DNA from: Thioalkalivibrio paradoxus ARh 1
Lineage (GTDB): Bacteria; Pseudomonadota; Gammaproteobacteria; Ectothiorhodospirales; Ectothiorhodospiraceae
Assembly: GCF_000227685.2 (NCBI RefSeq)
Contig: NZ_CP007029.1
Coordinates: forward strand, 2,454,501-2,518,500
Direction of reading: 5' to 3'
Length of the DNA stretch: 64,000 nt
In this document: positions 33,707 through 40,435 of the stretch, piece after piece
Layout: the number at the start of each line of letters is the position of its first letter
Position numbering within the stretch: position 1 is the stretch's first letter
Notes under the pieces: model-generated
The model's database searches: none
Told to the model about the DNA's origin: nothing
Seen by the model: only the letters and a program-made list of their open reading frames with translations
Made by a program: the position numbers and the translations under genes

Positions 33707-34366
33707 ATGACACAGGACGAAATGAAAAAGGCCGTCGCCGAAGCGGCCGTCGAGTTCGTGCAGGGTGGCTGGGTGGTTGGCGTGGGCACCGGTTCCACGG
33801 CCAACCACTTCATCGACGTGCTCGCACGCATGAAGGGCAAGATCGACGGCGCGGTCGCCTCCAGCGAGGCCAGCGCCGAACGCCTGCGCGGGCACGGAAT
33901 CGAGGTGCTGGACCTGAACAGCACGGGCCCGCTGCCGATTTACGTCGACGGCGCCGACGAGGCCACGCGCCACCTGCACCTGACCAAGGGCGGCGGCGGC
34001 GCGCTCACGCGCGAGAAGATCGTCGCGGCGGCTTCGGATCAGTTCGTCTGCGTGATCGACGAGACCAAGCAGGTCGACTACCTCGGAGCATTCCCGCTGC
34101 CGGTCGAGGTGATCCCGATGGCCCGCAGCCACGTCGCCCGCGTACTCACTGGCATGGGGGGCAACCCGGTCCTGCGCGAAGGCTTCCGCACCGACAACGG
34201 CAACGTGATCCTCGACGTGCACGGCCTGCGGATCATGAACCCGGTGGAACTCGAGAGCGAAATCGACCACATCGCCGGCGTGGTCAGCAACGGCCTGTTC
34301 GCCCGCCGGCCAGCCAACGTGCTGCTGGTCGGGACCCCGTCCGGGGTGCAGACGATTTCCGGCTGA
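33707..34366 (+). CDS. rpiA: Ribose-5-phosphate isomerase A
   Basis: RpiA interconverts ribose 5-phosphate and ribulose 5-phosphate in the pentose phosphate pathway. At 219 aa it equals the E. coli length. Signature motifs are [24 protein letters not shown] and [14 protein letters not shown]. The ATG at 33707 lies within a much longer spurious reading frame; the start is fixed by family length and the promoter-like signals upstream. It is divergent from ilvA. Confidence 0.96.
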
Positions 34367-34463
34367 ACGTGCGCCCGCCGCGATCCGGTCGCTGCGGGAA
34401 TACGCGAAACCCGCAGCCTTTACGGTGCTCCGTCAATAGTTCGGACGCTCGCCTGCGGAGACG

Positions 34464-35012
34464 GTTAGCGTGAAAGTCACGGCCTGTCTCGTGTCCCGGG
34501 CGACCCGTAGGGCGGAATAGCGCAGCGTCATCCGCCGTACGGCGTTCGCAGTGCCCAGGCGCCCGCGGCCATCCGAGCGCCAGCTGGCGGATGACGGCCT
34601 TCGGCCTTTTCCGCCCTACGCCTCTTTCATCATCGGGGGTGGCCACATAGGCCATGGTAGTTAGCGTGAAAGTCACGGCCTGTCTCGTGTCCCGGGCAAC
34701 GCGTAGGGCGGAAAAGCGCAGCGTTATCCGCCGTACGGCGTTCGCAGTGCCCAGGCGCCCGCGGCAATCCGGGCGCCAGCTGGCGGATGACGGCCTTCGG
34801 CCTTTTCCGCCCTACGCCTCTTTCATCATCGGGGGTGGCCACACGGGTCATGGCAGTTAGCGTGAAAGTCACGGCCTGTCTCGTGTCCCGGGCGACCCGT
34901 AGGGCGGAATAGCGCAGCGTCATCCGCCGTACGGCGTTCGCAGTGCCCAGGCGCCCGCGGCCATCCGAGCGCCAGCTGGCGGATGACGGCCTTCGGCCTT
35001 TTCCGCCTACGC
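34464..35012 (+). repeat. Three tandem family-A elements (196-bp period)
   Basis: Units start at 34464, 34660 and 34856, an exact 196-bp period; the third is cut after the final palindrome arm. Each has GTTAGCGTGAAAGTCACGG, then TCTCGTGTCCCGGGC, CGTAGGGCGGAA-AGCGCAGCG, and the mirrored GGCCTTTTCCGCC arm. A linker TTTCATCATCGGGGGTGG-C-CA then runs to the next unit. This is the clearest definition of the complete repeat unit in the window. Confidence 0.95.
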
Positions 35013-35030
35013 CTACTCAGACCCGATGCA

Positions 35031-35450
35031 TCAGGAACGATACCGAAGGGTGTCGAGGCTCAGCATCGTGTCCGAATCCCGAAGCAGGAATAGCGCCACG
35101 CAGGCCGCCAGCATGGGCCACGCGGCGAAAAAGAGCAGGTTGTCGAACGCCGCCAGGTACTGCTGCCAGGAGGAGAACGTCGAGACTGCATGCATCGCGA
35201 GCACCAGCCCGTAGGTCCAGGCCCGATACAGCCCGGCCACGAAACCCAGCACCACGATGAGCTGCAGTACGCCGATCACGGCCAGCGCACCCGCGCCGAG
35301 GCCTTCCAGATGATAGAAATGCTCAAAGACCCGCGCCGCGTGGTCCGGTGCCACGAACTTGTCCAGTGTCCAGACGAACATCACGACGAAGACTCCGAGA
35401 CGCAGCAACAACAGTGACACCCTCAGCCGTTTCTGCAATTCCATGACCAT
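35031..35450 (-). CDS. DoxX-like small membrane protein
   Basis: This 139-aa protein has four predicted membrane segments (LLLLRLGVFVVMFVWTLDKF; AGALAVIGVLQLIVVLGFVAGL; and two more), with the DoxX-type DKFVAPDHAARVFEHFY segment after the first. Start ATG 35450 has GGGGG close upstream. It is divergent from the hvf-type operon, which also begins with a DoxX family gene, so the two may be related in function. The biochemical role is unknown. Confidence 0.75.
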   Translation of the reverse strand: MVMELQKRLRVSLLLLRLGVFVVMFVWTLDKFVAPDHAARVFEHFYHLEGLGAGALAVIGVLQLIVVLGFVAGLYRAWTYGLVLAMHAVSTFSSWQQYLAAFDNLLFFAAWPMLAACVALFLLRDSDTMLSLDTLRYRS

Positions 35451-35874
35451 CGTTCCCCCTCGGTTTTCGATGCATTCGCTTCAAGGAAAGACCCCAAGGC
35501 CGGGGGGCGCACTACGTAATATCCGATAACCGCAGCGTGTCGGCTCGTTCGAAAGCTGCGCCCCTGCAGCATCGTCCGGTTCCTGCGTCGCCGGAACGGC
35601 CTGCCCTGGACGAGGAGTCGTCCACGCAGGGGGTCGCCGGCGTCGATATGCGCAAGCGCTGCGCCATAACACCGTCTGTTGGTACGGCCTCGCGCAGGAG
35701 GTGCCCCCGGACCCGGGACCCCGCACGCTCGAAGCCTCAAGACCTACGAATTCATACGTAGGGATCTGCGATCGCCCCGGTGGTTAACTGTTCTCGACGA
35801 AACGATTGGTCACCGCCGCTCCGCGTGATGCGGCAGACCTGGAAGCCAAACCAACCGCACGGGATACGACAAAG
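35451..35874. other. Divergent intergenic region upstream of hvf operon
   Basis: No gene is seen in these 424 bases. They must hold the promoters of the DoxX-like gene (left) and the hvfX operon (right). A small inverted repeat CCTACG-N8-CGTAGG lies at 35743-35762. An in-frame TTG start for hvfX at 35806 is possible but weak. No confident -35/-10 pair was assigned. Confidence 0.4.
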
Positions 35875-36483
35875 ATGAAACGATTGGCTCGCTGGATGCA
35901 TGACGCGCTCAACAGTACACGCAGCGTGGACTTTCTCGGACCCCTCGCGCTGCGCCTGTACCTTGCGCCGGTGTTCTGGGCTGCCGGCACCAACAAGCTG
36001 GACGGGCTGCTCCCGAACGCGGGGACCGTAGCCTGGTTCGGCAATCCGGACTGGGGGCTGGGCCTGCCGATGCCGTGGCTGATGGCCTTCCTCGCCGCCT
36101 ATGCCGAGGTCCTCGGGGCGATCGCGCTACTGTTCGGGATCGCCATGCGCTGGTTCTCGATCCCGTTGATGATCACAATGGTTGTTGCGGCCGTCACCGT
36201 GCACTGGAAACACGGCTGGCAGACGATCTCCGACCCGATGATGTGCCTGTTCAACTGCGGTGCGACCGAGGAGGCCGCGGTACGGCTGGATCGGGCCCGC
36301 TCGATCCTTCAGGAACACGGCAACTACGACTGGCTGACCCAGAGTGGCAGCTTCGTGATCCTGAACAACGGCATTGAAATGGCCGCCACCTACTTCGTGA
36401 TGCTGCTGGTGCTCTTTTTCTACGGCGCCGGACGGTATCTGAGTGTCGACCATTACGCGGCGCGCTGGCTGCGCCGAGACTGA
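35875..36483 (+). CDS. hvfX: HvfX-type DoxX family membrane protein
   Basis: This 202-aa DoxX-family integral membrane protein has the segments GPLALRLYLAPVFWAAGTNKLDG, a central PWLMAFLAAYAEVLGAIALL and a C-terminal MLLVLFFYGAGRYLSVD. DoxX proteins labelled HvfX accompany MNIO-modified RiPP precursors. The start was set at ATG 35875; a TTG at 35806 would add 23 polar residues. It is first in an operon with hvfA (86 bases downstream), hvfB and hvfC. A role in peptide maturation or copper handling is inferred from context. Confidence 0.82.
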   Translation: MKRLARWMHDALNSTRSVDFLGPLALRLYLAPVFWAAGTNKLDGLLPNAGTVAWFGNPDWGLGLPMPWLMAFLAAYAEVLGAIALLFGIAMRWFSIPLMITMVVAAVTVHWKHGWQTISDPMMCLFNCGATEEAAVRLDRARSILQEHGNYDWLTQSGSFVILNNGIEMAATYFVMLLVLFFYGAGRYLSVDHYAARWLRRD

Positions 36484-36569
36484 ACAACAACCAGAAGCCG
36501 CATGCAAGCGGACGCTTCAGCAACACCGTTCCGATCACCTATGATCGTCACATTCAAAAGGAGAATCAC

Positions 36570-36881
36570 ATGAAAGACCATCTCTTCAATCGCAAGACCC
36601 TCGCCGCCACCATCGGCACCGCCGCCGTCGGCCTCGCAATGGGCAGCACGCCGCTGTTTGCCGCGACCGACCTCGGCCAGGGCTATCAGGTCAGCCAGTC
36701 CTCCACCGCGCTGCAGAAGCTCGCTCAGGGCAGCTGCGGCGAAGGCACCTGCGGCGGCGCTTCCGGCGAGAAGGAAACCGAGGGTAGCTGCGGCGAAGGT
36801 CGCTGCGGCGGTGCCTCGGACGACAATGGCGATGACAAGGACACGGAAGGCAAGTGCGGTGAGGGCCGTTGCGGCGGCTAG
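36570..36881 (+). CDS. hvfA: HvfA-type RiPP precursor, Cys-rich secreted peptide
   Basis: This 103-aa precursor has a long N-terminal export signal (NRKTLAATIGTAAVGLAMGS, cleavage near TPLFA) and a Gly/Cys-rich core. Three near-identical 11-residue motifs, QGSCGEGTCGG (53-63), EGSCGEGRCGG (71-81) and EGKCGEGRCGG (93-103), carry all six cysteines, linked by acidic spacers. EGKCG motifs mark HvfA-like precursors whose cysteines are converted by MNIO enzymes into oxazolone/thioamide-type copper-binding groups. The ribosome-binding site AAGGAG is strong. Modification here is inference. Confidence 0.88.
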   Translation: MKDHLFNRKTLAATIGTAAVGLAMGSTPLFAATDLGQGYQVSQSSTALQKLAQGSCGEGTCGGASGEKETEGSCGEGRCGGASDDNGDDKDTEGKCGEGRCGG

Positions 36882-36928
36882 GATGACGTGATCATCAGGG
36901 CCGCCATCGTGTGATGGTCGCGCCCTAT

Positions 36929-37034
36929 CGTCATCGCGAGGCACGCAGTGACGTGGCGATCCAGGCGGAGTCTGGATCGCCACGGGCCTTCGGCCCTCGC
37001 GATGACGGGCCACGGGCCTTCGGCCCCCGCGATG
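36929..37034. repeat. Palindromic core repeat inserted between hvfA and hvfB
   Basis: A degenerate copy of the family B/C core lies in the 245-base hvfA-hvfB gap: GTCATCGCGAGGCACGCAG, TGGCGATCCAGGCGG, then its mirror TGGATCGCCACGGGC and CCTCGCGATGACGGG, with CACGGGCCTTCGGCC duplicated. It would form a stable stem in the operon mRNA between precursor and maturase. Confidence 0.8.
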
Positions 37035-37126
37035 GCATATCTGAGGGTATGGCGATTGCCGGCTTAACCATCACGGTGGCACTCACGACGACAGATTGGA
37101 ATCAGTCACTTATGGAGTCAACGCCT

Positions 37127-37987
37127 ATGAATCACCGGTCGGAAGTGCGTGGCGCGGGGCTGGGTCTGCGGCGGTCTCTGCTGAGCCCCTTCGCGCAAGC
37201 GCCCGGATCCCGCGACCGGGTCGATTTCCTCGAAGTCGCCCCCGAGAACTGGATGCATCTCGGCGGCGCCCTCGGGCGAACCTTCCGCGAGTGGACCGAA
37301 GCCAAACCCTTCGTCTGCCACGGGCTATCGTTGGATATCGGCGGGCCGCGGCCACTGGACCGGGACTTCTTGCGGGACCTGCGCAGCTTTCTGGACACCC
37401 ACGGCATCCGCGACTACACCGAGCATCTGTCCGCCTGCGGCGACGAGTTCGGCCACCTGTACGACCTGATGCCGATCCCGTTCACCGAGGACGCGGTACG
37501 CCATGTCGCCGAGCGGGTCGGCGTCGTGCAGGACCTTCTGGGCATGCGCATTGCGCTGGAAAACGTCTCCTACTACGCGCAGCCCGGGGCGGAGATGAGC
37601 GAGGCGGAGTTCGTGTCTGCGGTCATCGAGACGGCCGACTGTGACCTGCTCCTGGACGTGAACAACATCGTCGTCAACGCGATCAACCATCGCTACGATC
37701 CGTTGGATTTCCTCGACCGCGTGCCGCTGGACCGCGTGCGCTACCTGCATGTCGCCGGGCACCACGAAGAAGCACCCGACCTGCGCGTCGACACCCACGG
37801 GGCCGACATCTGCACCGACGTCTGGGCATTGCTGGACGAGGTCTACCGGCGCCTGGGACCGGTGCCGACCCTGCTCGAGCGCGACTTCAACTTCCCTCCG
37901 CTTCAGGACCTTCTCGCCGAAGTCGCCCGCGTGCGCGCAATGCTCGAGGCAAGCGAGGCGGTCATGGAGGTACGCCGCCGTGCCTGA
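37127..37987 (+). CDS. hvfB: HvfB-type MNIO (DUF692) RiPP maturase
   Basis: This 286-aa member of the multinuclear non-heme iron oxidase family (DUF692, TIM-barrel fold) has the expected metal-binding positions: EVAPENWM (36-43), [10 protein letters not shown] (His65), TEHLSACGD (Glu99-His100), ENVSYY (Glu145, Asn146), [12 protein letters not shown] (Asp177), LHVAGHHE (His208 and following), DTHG (His224) and ERDFNFP (Glu251, Asp253). In characterised relatives the enzyme oxidises precursor cysteines. GGAG precedes the ATG at 37127. It overlaps hvfC by 8 bases. Confidence 0.92.
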
Positions 37988-38762
37988 ACTGGACTTTCGC
38001 GAAGTGCAGCGCCGATTCGCGGCTCATCTGCGCGACCCCGAACGCCATGCCCCACCCGCGGGTATCGAGGAGCGCCGCCTGGCGATCTACCGGCGGCTGT
38101 TCATCAACAACATCGAGGATCTGCTCGGACGGGCGTACCCGGTGTTGCGCAGCCTGCACGGTTCGGAACGCTGGGCACGGCTGACTCGCGACTTCTATCG
38201 GGAACACGGATGCCACACACCGTACTTCCCGCGTCTGGCCGAGGAGTTTCTTCAATATCTGAGCACGGAGCGAACGGCGCACGAAGACGATTTTCCTTTT
38301 CTCGCCGAACTCGCCCATTACGAACGCGCCGAGGTGGTCGTGGCGCAGCACGAAGATGACCCCGACCATGCCACCGGCATCACGATTGATCCTCTGGGCG
38401 ATCCCTTCACCGAGGTTCCGGTACTCGCTACCGCCACGCGCTTGCTGGCCTACGAATACCCGGTCCAACGGATCGGCCCCGACTTCGTCCCGGCCAGCCC
38501 CGGCGAACACCCCACCTACCTGGTGGTGTTCCGCGACCGCGACTTCCGTACCGGGTTCATCGAGCTCAACCCATTGAGCGCGCGCATCCTCTGGTACGTG
38601 CAGAACGATCCCGCGCCGGGAGCCGAACTGGTGCACCGGGTCGCCGCCGACTTCGACCTTGCACCCGGCGAGGAGCTCCTGCGCAGCGCCGAGGAACTGC
38701 TGCGGCACTGGCTGCAGCGCGGTGTACTCGCGGGAACCCGTACCGATTCCCCGGCGACCTGA
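37980..38762 (+). CDS. hvfC: HvfC-type (DUF2063) MNIO partner protein
   Basis: This 260-aa protein has an N-terminal DUF2063 domain ([18 protein letters not shown] ... [26 protein letters not shown]), the domain that partners DUF692 enzymes and presents the precursor peptide. The C-terminal half ([19 protein letters not shown] ... YLVVFRD) is typical of the longer HvfC/BufC type. The start is GTG at 37980, overlapping the last codons of hvfB, which implies tightly coupled synthesis of the enzyme and its partner. Confidence 0.9.
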
Positions 38763-38863
38763 GCCTGCCGCCTGCTCTGCAGGCGCGAACGGCAAGGTGC
38801 CGCCGCCCAGCCGCACCATCGAATTGCAGGCTGGAAGAGGCTGTAGGGCGTGATCCGCCGGGC

Positions 38864-39409
38864 TCACGGGAGACGAAGGCTTGCCACCGTCCCCAGCGTA
38901 GCGCGCATCTCGTTGATGCTCGGCGGCTTCGCGTCCCTTGGTTCGCCGTAGATACCGGCGCAGGTCAGCCGTCGGACGTCGGGCTGGTTCTCGCTGGCGA
39001 GCCAGAGATGGTAGCCCTGCCAGGTTCGGTTGTAACCGGAATCCCCGCCAATTCCTCCGCCCAACATGGCCACCTCGACCGACGGCTGCCATTGCGCGAC
39101 CGAGGCCGACGTGCGCTGGACACGGCGGACGACGAACCGCCCCGCTTCCACGGTCTGAACGCGGTTGCGATCGAGGGTGTTGATCTCGAGGTTGCAGCTG
39201 GTGTCGTACCAGTCACGGCCCGGTGCCACCCGGCCGCGCACGAACCACACCCGCGTGGTGCCCGGCGGGATCGCGACCGGCTGATGCAGTTCGATCACCG
39301 CGCCCTCGGGCACCAGGTAGTAGGGAGAGGCGGGGTCTTCTTTCACGTCGACGAGGGCGCACCCGATCAGACCGGCCGCCAGCCCGATGGCAATGAGCGT
39401 CTTGAACAT
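38864..39409 (-). CDS. Putative lipoprotein
   Basis: This 181-aa protein has a lipoprotein signal (MFKTLIAIGLAAGLIGC; the cysteine at residue 17 is the lipid anchor) followed by a beta-rich domain (GAVIELHQPVAIPPGTTRVWFVRGR, RFVVRRVQ). I do not recognise a named family. Start ATG 39409 has an AGGAGG site. It is convergent with the hvf operon, with a 100-base gap. A function at the periplasmic face of a membrane is all that can be inferred. Confidence 0.78.
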   Translation of the reverse strand: MFKTLIAIGLAAGLIGCALVDVKEDPASPYYLVPEGAVIELHQPVAIPPGTTRVWFVRGRVAPGRDWYDTSCNLEINTLDRNRVQTVEAGRFVVRRVQRTSASVAQWQPSVEVAMLGGGIGGDSGYNRTWQGYHLWLASENQPDVRRLTCAGIYGEPRDAKPPSINEMRATLGTVASLRLP

Positions 39410-39988
39410 CGTGACCTCCTGACGAGGCACCCGCGATCACGCGTTGGCCCAGGATTGCGCGACTTCCCGCGCGGCCTCCGACGAACCGGGAGCCTGTGCC
39501 TTGAGTTTGGGTCGCTCCAGGTCCGAAGTACAGCAGGGATACGCGTCCTGCGGCATTGCCGCAAGCGCCTGGTGGGGTGCTCCCAACACCGGGCCGTGAG
39601 CGTGGGAAGGGCGATGGGCCCGCAAACGCAGGCGGTACCCGCAGCCGCAGCCCGCACCGCTGTGTTGTCGCCGAGTGGGGCTTCTCCGAGGCGATGGTGC
39701 GGGACCGCATACCGCGCGTTGGTGGACGGGCCCGTCCCACGGCGACCGGGCCTCGCCCGGGTTTCAAACAAACAGATTGCAGTGGCGTTCGTGACGGTAC
39801 CTCATCGATTGGATCGTGTTCCTGGAACTCGGAAAGGGCTTGCGGCGCGTTGGGGGGCCGGACCACGGAATCATTCAATCGCGCGGCCCGGTCCCGCGAC
39901 GATGCGGGGCCGGGCGGTACGCGTTACGGCCGATCAGCCACCCACGCCCACCTCATACCAGGGCGTGGGGTTGATCGGGCAGCGGTAA
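39410..39988. other. Intergenic region with no intact gene
   Basis: No well-supported ORF lies in about 580 bases. One minus-strand frame (39437-39625) ends in a natural-looking tail (LERPKLKAQAPGSSEAAREV) but has no recognisable domain. The stretch abuts the truncated AraC gene and may be what is left of its deleted 5' half and neighbours. Confidence 0.35.
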
Positions 39989-40435
39989 CGAAACCCCTTA
40001 CTGATCCTGGTGCTGCGCCATGTCATGGCCGCAGGCCAGGTCCGGGCGGGTCTGCTCGCGGGCCTCGCAAACCCGCAACTGCGGCGGGCGCTGGTGTGCA
40101 TGCACCGTGACTACCGTCACCCCTGGCAACTGGACGAACTGGCTGCGCGGGCGGGTCTCTCGCGCAGCGCTTTTGCCCGGCAGTTCCTCGAGGTCGTCGG
40201 CGACACGCCGATGAACTACCTCGCACACTGGTGCATGCACCAGGCAGAGCTGCTGCTGCAGGACCGGCGCCGCTCGGTCGCCGAAGTGGCTGAAACGTTC
40301 GGCTACGCGTCGGAAGCCGCATTTCGACGGGCGTTCAAGCGCATCCGCGGTCGCGGCCCGGGCGCGGTGCGCCGGCTCGCCCCAAGGAAGCCGGAGCCAC
40401 CAACCACCGGGGTGGATCCCCGGAGGAACCGCTGA
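39989..40435 (+). pseudogene. AraC-family regulator, N-terminal truncated
   Basis: Only the C-terminal DNA-binding half of an AraC/XylS regulator is present: LVCMHRDYRHPWQLDELAARAGLSRSAFARQF and the second helix-turn-helix SVAEVAETFGYASEAAFRRAFKRIRG. Residues just before (LLILVLRHVMAAGQVRAG) look like the linker helix of cupin-type AraC proteins. An in-frame TAA at 39986 cuts off the expected ~150-residue sensory domain, and no trace of it is seen upstream. The DNA-binding part could still be expressed from GTG 40010. Confidence 0.72.

Follow-up and report, generated by a model that had tools for sequence, protein, structure and literature searches.

A predicted hvfXABC operon of Thioalkalivibrio paradoxus ARh 1 with a mostly non-lysine EGxCG precursor motif

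Introduction

The hvfXABC operon of nontypeable Haemophilus influenzae encodes a precursor with three double-cysteine motifs and six cysteines (PMC13419390), and we examined a locus with the same four gene families and the same cysteine arrangement at positions 35875-38762 of a 64,000-nucleotide stretch (the window) of Thioalkalivibrio paradoxus ARh 1 (NZ_CP007029.1, positions 2,454,501 to 2,518,500). Related systems share further features with this locus. The fontiphorin operon (fonABC) of Fontimonas thermophila and other captophorins combine EGxCG repeats with a multinuclear iron oxidase (MNIO) and a PME1 partner (PMC13097082). In the same source, FonA was found to lose four hydrogens per repeat, 5-thiooxazole was assigned to the products of HvfA, FonA and NgoA, and the FonA and NgoA products bound copper. 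The Buf_EGKCG, or oxazolin, precursors of Antoine et al. (2025) carry a signal peptide and have MNIO, DUF2063 and DoxX neighbors, and one precursor type is built of units with two EGKCG motifs (PMC12452194). In Microbulbifer, the bulbicupramide operon mmrABC has EGKCG-type repeats and an MNIO/DUF2063 pair, and its product binds Cu(I) (PMC12538549).

Results

The operon consists of four consecutive genes on the plus strand. A DoxX-family membrane protein is encoded by hvfX (35875-36483; PF07681, 77.4 bits; HvfX model NF050144, 236 bits against a cut-off of 80), followed by a precursor of 103 amino acids encoded by hvfA (36570-36881; NF050137, 36.3 bits, cut-off 19.5; NF050188, 45.2 bits, below the cut-off of 95), an MNIO (DUF692) maturase encoded by hvfB (37127-37987; PF05114, 326 bits; HvfB model NF003818, 413.3 bits, cut-off 360), and a DUF2063 plus RRE-type partner encoded by hvfC (37980-38762; PF09836, 93.9 bits; PF22106, 77.4 bits; HvfC model NF050145, 275.3 bits, cut-off 142). 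The GTG start of hvfC at 37980 precedes the hvfB stop at 37987, giving an overlap of 8 bases. By eye, a GGAG resembling a ribosome site lies before hvfB (37114-37117). The closest relatives of solved structure were 3BWW for HvfB (E 5.6e-73) and 3DEE for HvfC (E 1.9e-11). HvfX, HvfB and HvfC exceeded the NCBIfam equivalog cut-offs, and HvfA passed the domain model NF050137 only; since its score with the full-length HvfA equivalog NF050188 was 45.2 bits, we filed it as a precursor of the HvfA family and not as an HvfA equivalog. The bufferin maturase model MNIO_BufB (NF050167) gave HvfB 252.7 bits, under the cut-off of 310, while the HvfB model was passed, and the maturase was therefore taken to be of the HvfB type and not of the BufB type. 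An earlier sequence-only reading had listed the same gene order and overlap and had placed the genes in MNIO families near HvfA and the bufferins. The open reading frames (ORFs) and the Pfam and NCBIfam scores bore out the gene order and the overlap, HvfB and HvfC fell within their families, and the profile comparison upheld the HvfXABC assignment, with the bufferin model missed. Judged from its predicted proteins, the locus belongs with the hvfXABC operons of the established oxazolin/captophorin (Buf_EGKCG) type.

The six cysteines of HvfA all lie in three 11-residue units, QGSCGEGTCGG, EGSCGEGRCGG and EGKCGEGRCGG, behind an N-terminus that resembles a signal peptide as judged by eye. The sequence-only reading had described these three motifs correctly. 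It had also placed GEG between the two cysteines of a unit; the GEG is present, but the spacing is four residues and GEG accounts for only three. The special character that it had implied for the triple double-cysteine layout did not hold, as this is the published arrangement of H. influenzae HvfA (PMC13419390), whose three AEGKCGEGKCG motifs and six modified cysteines make the layout the archetype. The real departure from the usual motif, as read from the translated precursor, is the mostly non-lysine residue before the cysteine, which the earlier reading had written as x without remark: the residues preceding the six cysteines are S, T, S, R, K and R, with lysine at one of six sites.

The residue before the cysteine was compared across 62 precursors, each with two or more motifs: that of the window, those of 11 same-genus loci and those of 50 among 80 named loci (17 Thioalkalivibrio precursors and 45 others; G and L labels below denote relatives' genomes and loci in the comparison set). 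The remaining named loci were dropped because no EGxCG precursor was recognized in the stretch and on the strand that were read (29 of 80) or because the precursor had fewer than two motifs (L086). Among the 20 same-genus loci, L016, L019 and L020, being cut near contig ends, had no precursor, and the copies L001, L012, L013, L009, L014, L017 and L021 were omitted from the motif tree. The 45 others include two loci outside the main Thioalkalivibrio clade, L034 and L095 (the latter named T. denitrificans). At the 110 sites of the 17 genus precursors, the preceding residue was T at 39, S at 35, A at 19, R at 10, K at 6 and N at 1. In the 45 other precursors, K occupied 240 of 328 sites and S 57, with the remainder mixed; sites in this group were counted only where a loose motif filter fitted, a filter that kept every cysteine of the 17 genus precursors. 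Gly followed all 110 genus cysteines, and motif position 1 was Glu at 103 sites and Gln at 7. The genus precursors had 4 to 8 cysteines each, the minimum coming from a sequence close to the end of a contig. In a scan of 10 more Lys-poor precursors, nine passed NF050137 and the tenth was a 54-residue fragment.

The two cysteines of a double motif differed in the residue before them. In 54 genus double motifs, the first cysteine was preceded by S in 33, A in 15, K in 4, N in 1 and T in 1, and the second by T in 38, R in 10, K in 2, S in 2 and A in 2; thus S or A stood before the first, and T or R before the second, in 48 of 54 each. From the repeat pattern, it is apparently the double motif as a whole that is duplicated, and simple inheritance could then explain the asymmetry. 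Five further family-level precursors outside all counts (L111, L114, L117, L122 and L124) had KKKKKK, RRKRKR, STSTSTAT, RRKKR and RRSSRR before their cysteines, and given this range the family is mixed in this residue. Among the literature text matches listed, none contained EGSCG, EGACG, GSCGEG or EGTCG in the main text, and sections 14 and 15 of PMC12452194 contain no discussion of variation in the residue before the cysteine. As a separate observation, HvfB/HvfC-like pairs of Woeseiaceae and other loci (L041, L043, L055, L056, L065, L067, L074, L076, L088, L089, L090 and L092) lie a few hundred bases past an ORF that, by eye, resembles endonuclease III; only at L043 was an EGxCG precursor recognized beside the pair.

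A quick maturase tree was built from 62 rows, 30 of them Lys-poor and 32 Lys-rich. Its best topology required at least seven changes of state, and strongly supported branches forced four of these. The Lys fraction of the motif sites fell with GC content (rho -0.52, p 1.6e-5) and rose with the maturase ratio of Lys to Lys plus Arg, K/(K+R) (rho 0.58, p 9e-7), and showed no correlation with maturase net acidity (rho 0.01), all as raw correlations that ignore kinship. We considered habitat or composition as the cause of Lys loss and could not accept either on these raw correlations, because the kinship-aware pairs test was too small, with 4 pairs on supported branches and 7 on all branches. Composition drift and function are inseparable as causes of the Lys-poor motif in these data.

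The putative substrate-contact residues of the maturase were the same in Lys-rich and Lys-poor rows. Matched by motif and place, HvfB R15, R16, D253 and F254 are the presumed counterparts of FonB R15, R16, D249 and F250, residues whose reported role is in substrate contact in captophorin-type maturases. Of the 101 maturase rows aligned, 99 had R15 and R16, the other 2 being gapped, and all 101 had D253 and F254; the rows include some copies of one genome. In FonB, an Asp249 variant left the peptide unmodified, and Arg15, Arg16 and Phe250 bear on the choice of substrate (PMC13097082). FonBC reportedly tolerates Ala, Arg and Thr before the cysteine, and processing suffers severely with Phe or Glu at that position (section 12 of PMC13097082). 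As the contact residues are unchanged and FonBC accepts Ala, Arg and Thr, enzyme tolerance is the simplest reading of the Lys-poor motif.

All four genes show signs of purifying selection. The ratios of nonsynonymous to synonymous change (dN/dS, NG86) against G002, a close relative with a genome of 4.0 Mb and a precursor protein identical to that of the window (locus L106), were 0.02 for hvfX, 0 for hvfA, 0.09 for hvfB and 0.25 for hvfC. Against L022, labelled T. paradoxus, whose maturase is 87% identical, they were 0.09, 0.25, 0.14 and 0.12, respectively; the following four maturase rows, all Thioalkalivibrio, were 69-72% identical. Because every one of the 110 cysteines in the 17 genus precursors precedes Gly and the dN/dS of the four genes is 0-0.25 against the two relatives, the motif is not due to chance. 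The operon is common but patchy in Thioalkalivibrio: HvfC scored above the cut-off in 20 of 30 same-genus genomes and an MNIO was found in 21 of 30. The sole MNIO of G024 and G025 may be of another kind, since the paired HvfC match falls under the cut-off. A tblastn search of HvfA against 72,556 plasmid records returned one weak match (39% identity, E 6e-6).

Unlike in several relatives, hvfA and hvfB in the window are separated by 245 bases, a gap that contains a repeated hairpin element and that was absent from the earlier reading. In L022, G016 and G029, which have no such element, alignable hvfB starts 12, 13 and 22 bases past the hvfA stop, respectively. The repetitive extragenic palindrome (REP)-like inverted repeat spans 36929-37034, with arms at 36929-36964 and 36972-37007 that are 83% complementary and a second half-unit at 37009-37034; the folding z-score for the full 245-base gap was -5.0. 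A 126-base query had at least 89 matches in the genome (3,756,729 bases, one contig), with both palindrome strands counted and 40 of 62 first-look candidates scored, and the matches clustered at about 1.18-1.25 Mb. G002 has the element with one extra unit. Three Rfam matches over 34000-39500 were all far under their gathering scores, and hence we recognized no known RNA in this interval. REP hairpins in general can protect the upstream message; by analogy, the element could shield the hvfA message and so favor precursor over enzyme.

In 10 of the 30 same-genus genomes, the contig with the maturase also encodes, 1.2-1.3 kb from it and on the opposite strand, an AraC-family protein that contains Cupin_6 (PF12852 and PF12833, scanned in the L023 copy; at least 74% identity); its gene adjoins hvfX divergently. 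One stop codon was noted in three of the ten matches on a first count; the alignable 308 residues contain none (G005, G029 and G011). At E 1e-20, the gene was found in none of the seven genus genomes without an HvfC match, and it was absent from eight HvfC-positive genomes, several of them drafts (G003, G016, G017, G018, G020, G023, G026 and G027). Homologues at E 1e-8 or better occurred in 7 of the 80 named loci, namely two Thioalkalivibrio, Algiphilus and four Nevskiaceae. The gap between the AraC gene and hvfX contains the block GACGATCGNNCATAAA, which is a perfect match in 7 of these 10 genomes and has one mismatch in the remaining 3, and no further site with up to 2 mismatches was present in the stretches read. 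We regard the AraC/Cupin_6 protein as a candidate regulator and GACGATCGNNCATAAA as a candidate binding block. Transcriptional regulators co-occur with these operons in Table S1 of PMC13097082, where an AraC link may be listed. The term AraC had no occurrence in the MNIO papers among the literature matches listed, in a search needing at least three of four terms, which a paper on MNIO and AraC only would escape.

Near the window hvfX, GACGATCGNNCATAAA had no match at up to 3 mismatches. A different candidate control element, TACGTAGGGATC, lies at 35755-35766 on the plus strand, about 110 bases before hvfX. Across the 64-kb window, the sequence TACGTARRGATC matches only once, and exactly (chance expectation 0.22 at 1 mismatch), and it also occurs upstream of hvfX in G002, L025 and L026 and, by eye, with one mismatch in L022. 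As these sequences are related, the conservation of TACGTARRGATC and GACGATCGNNCATAAA may be partly descent. No sigma-70-like promoter was found in 35447-39000, in a weak scan with 0.5 expected by chance. Downstream of the operon, the remnant of an AraC/Cupin_6-type gene at 39989-40432 (plus strand) retains the C-terminal helix-turn-helix part (HTH_18, 67 bits) and has no N-terminal half. In G002 the related gene is full length (316 codons) and lies on the hvf strand, downstream of hvfC; it has 44% identity to the L023 copy. The window lacks a 939-base stretch of G002 that spans about the first 171 codons of this gene.

Other features were noted around the operon. Before hvfX, a divergent ORF at 35031-35450 encodes a membrane-protein-like product of 139 amino acids with a 99% identical counterpart in G002; it scored above cut-off in neither Pfam nor NCBIfam. 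Farther upstream, two minus-strand ORFs, 34284-34676 and 34630-34923, have near-identical peptide stretches that point to a DNA repeat at 34284-34923. Opposite window positions 39775-39998, G002 holds about 580 and 939 extra bases; two ORFs of 129 codons (with a secreted-looking start) and 207 codons, at L129:1921-2307 and L129:2449-3069, lie mostly in these G002-only bases, opposite to the hvf strand. We also looked for a connection to copper through thiocyanate dehydrogenase, which is a copper enzyme of this genus, and found none: the neighbors described in the cited portions are copCD (PMC5744179, PMC5328954 and PMC6382920) and ABC transporters (PMC5744179 and PMC5328954). DoxX, UPF0276, DUF692 and DUF2063 do not occur in the main text of PMC5744179, nor DoxX or UPF0276 in PMC5328954.

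Discussion

Judged from its genes and their conservation, the window operon looks functional and is an ordinary case of the oxazolin/captophorin group, with motif variation at the level of the genus. Very probably, hvfXABC makes a thiooxazole peptide that buffers Cu(I), with the Lys substitutions tolerated and the chemistry the same. Going by the characterized relatives, HvfB would act with its partner HvfC on the six EGxCG cysteines of HvfA, each of which would become a 5-thiooxazole with the loss of four hydrogens (about 4 Da) before export by the Sec pathway. The exported peptide would then bind several Cu(I) ions and buffer periplasmic copper, HvfX would serve as an accessory membrane protein, and the unchanged maturase would accept Ser, Ala, Thr or Arg in place of Lys. 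Several points weigh against this proposal. HvfA scores well under the cut-off of the full-length HvfA equivalog. Ser, the commonest residue at the first cysteine of the genus double motifs, does not appear as a position-3 variant in section 12 of PMC13097082. The literature searched yielded no expression or chemistry data for Thioalkalivibrio. In Microbulbifer, the homologous proteins were undetected with or without added copper (PMC12538549), and the copper function is unsettled in relatives. Expression of the window operon is itself uncertain, because the linked AraC-type gene is truncated.

Rather than being merely tolerated, the Lys-poor motif could be a functional retuning, giving two unlike thiooxazole sites within each unit or suiting copper binding at high pH and salt. 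The division between S/A at the first cysteine and T/R at the second fits such a reading, as do the repeated changes to or from the Lys-poor state on the maturase tree, including those on strongly supported branches. Several Lys-poor rows also belong to Thioalkalivibrio, Methylonatrum and Wenzhouxiangella, by name genera of soda or salt lakes. However, the Lys fraction follows GC content and maturase K/(K+R), so that a general avoidance of Lys may suffice, and the net acidity of the maturase is uncorrelated. Lys-poor precursors are also found in Mizugakiibacter and another Rhodanobacteraceae row, and within the same family L111 is all Lys while L114, L122 and L124 mix Arg, Lys and Ser with no first/second code. 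The asymmetry itself may be mere copying as the 11-residue unit duplicates. We consider retuning possible, if tentative. A bolder combination is doubtful, namely that repeated loss of Lys in Thioalkalivibrio and some other lineages, the S/A and T/R code of Thioalkalivibrio and an unchanged maturase together yield two unlike copper sites per unit, suited to the pH and salt of soda lakes, with the AraC/Cupin_6 protein in control, in part of the genus, at the block before hvfX.

It is unlikely that the operon is unexpressed or decaying in this strain. The loss of the N-terminal half of the AraC-type gene, the REP-like element that splits precursor from maturase, and the failure to find a sigma-70-like promoter would agree with decay, but all hvf genes are intact with low dN/dS against G002, the promoter scan is weak, and a ribosome-site-like GGAG stands before hvfB. 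The eight other HvfC-positive genomes in which the AraC gene was not found at E 1e-20, several of them drafts, also count against decay. That the product is a DUF2282 or six-cysteine bufferin instead of an oxazolin is extremely improbable: the core gene set is the same (PMC12452194) and the maturase is related, but the Pfam scan gave no DUF2282 match, HvfB passes the HvfB model and falls short of the BufB model, and the precursor motif is EGxCG. Tolerance by an unchanged maturase is our preferred account of the Lys-poor precursor.

As one more case of a widespread copper-peptide operon, the window operon changes little alone. What the comparison offers is a natural substrate series, in which the residue before the cysteine varies among Ser, Ala, Thr and Arg and the putative contact residues of the accompanying maturases stay the same, together with a candidate regulator, the AraC/Cupin_6 protein divergent from hvfX, and its candidate binding block. 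H. influenzae HvfA has AEGKCGEGKCG three times with Lys at every site, whereas the window HvfA has S, T, S, R, K and R. FonA has Lys-Cys repeats and seven modification sites, while the window HvfA is Lys-poor with six cysteines. The bulbicupramide precursors, with five to eight cysteines, have a Lys-type motif (PMC12538549). With Lys at 1 of 6 window sites and 6 of 110 genus sites, these precursors fall outside the Lys-Cys (EGKCG) captophorin subgroup as defined, and since unchanged maturases accompany non-Lys precursors, the EGKCG label is too restrictive for the group.

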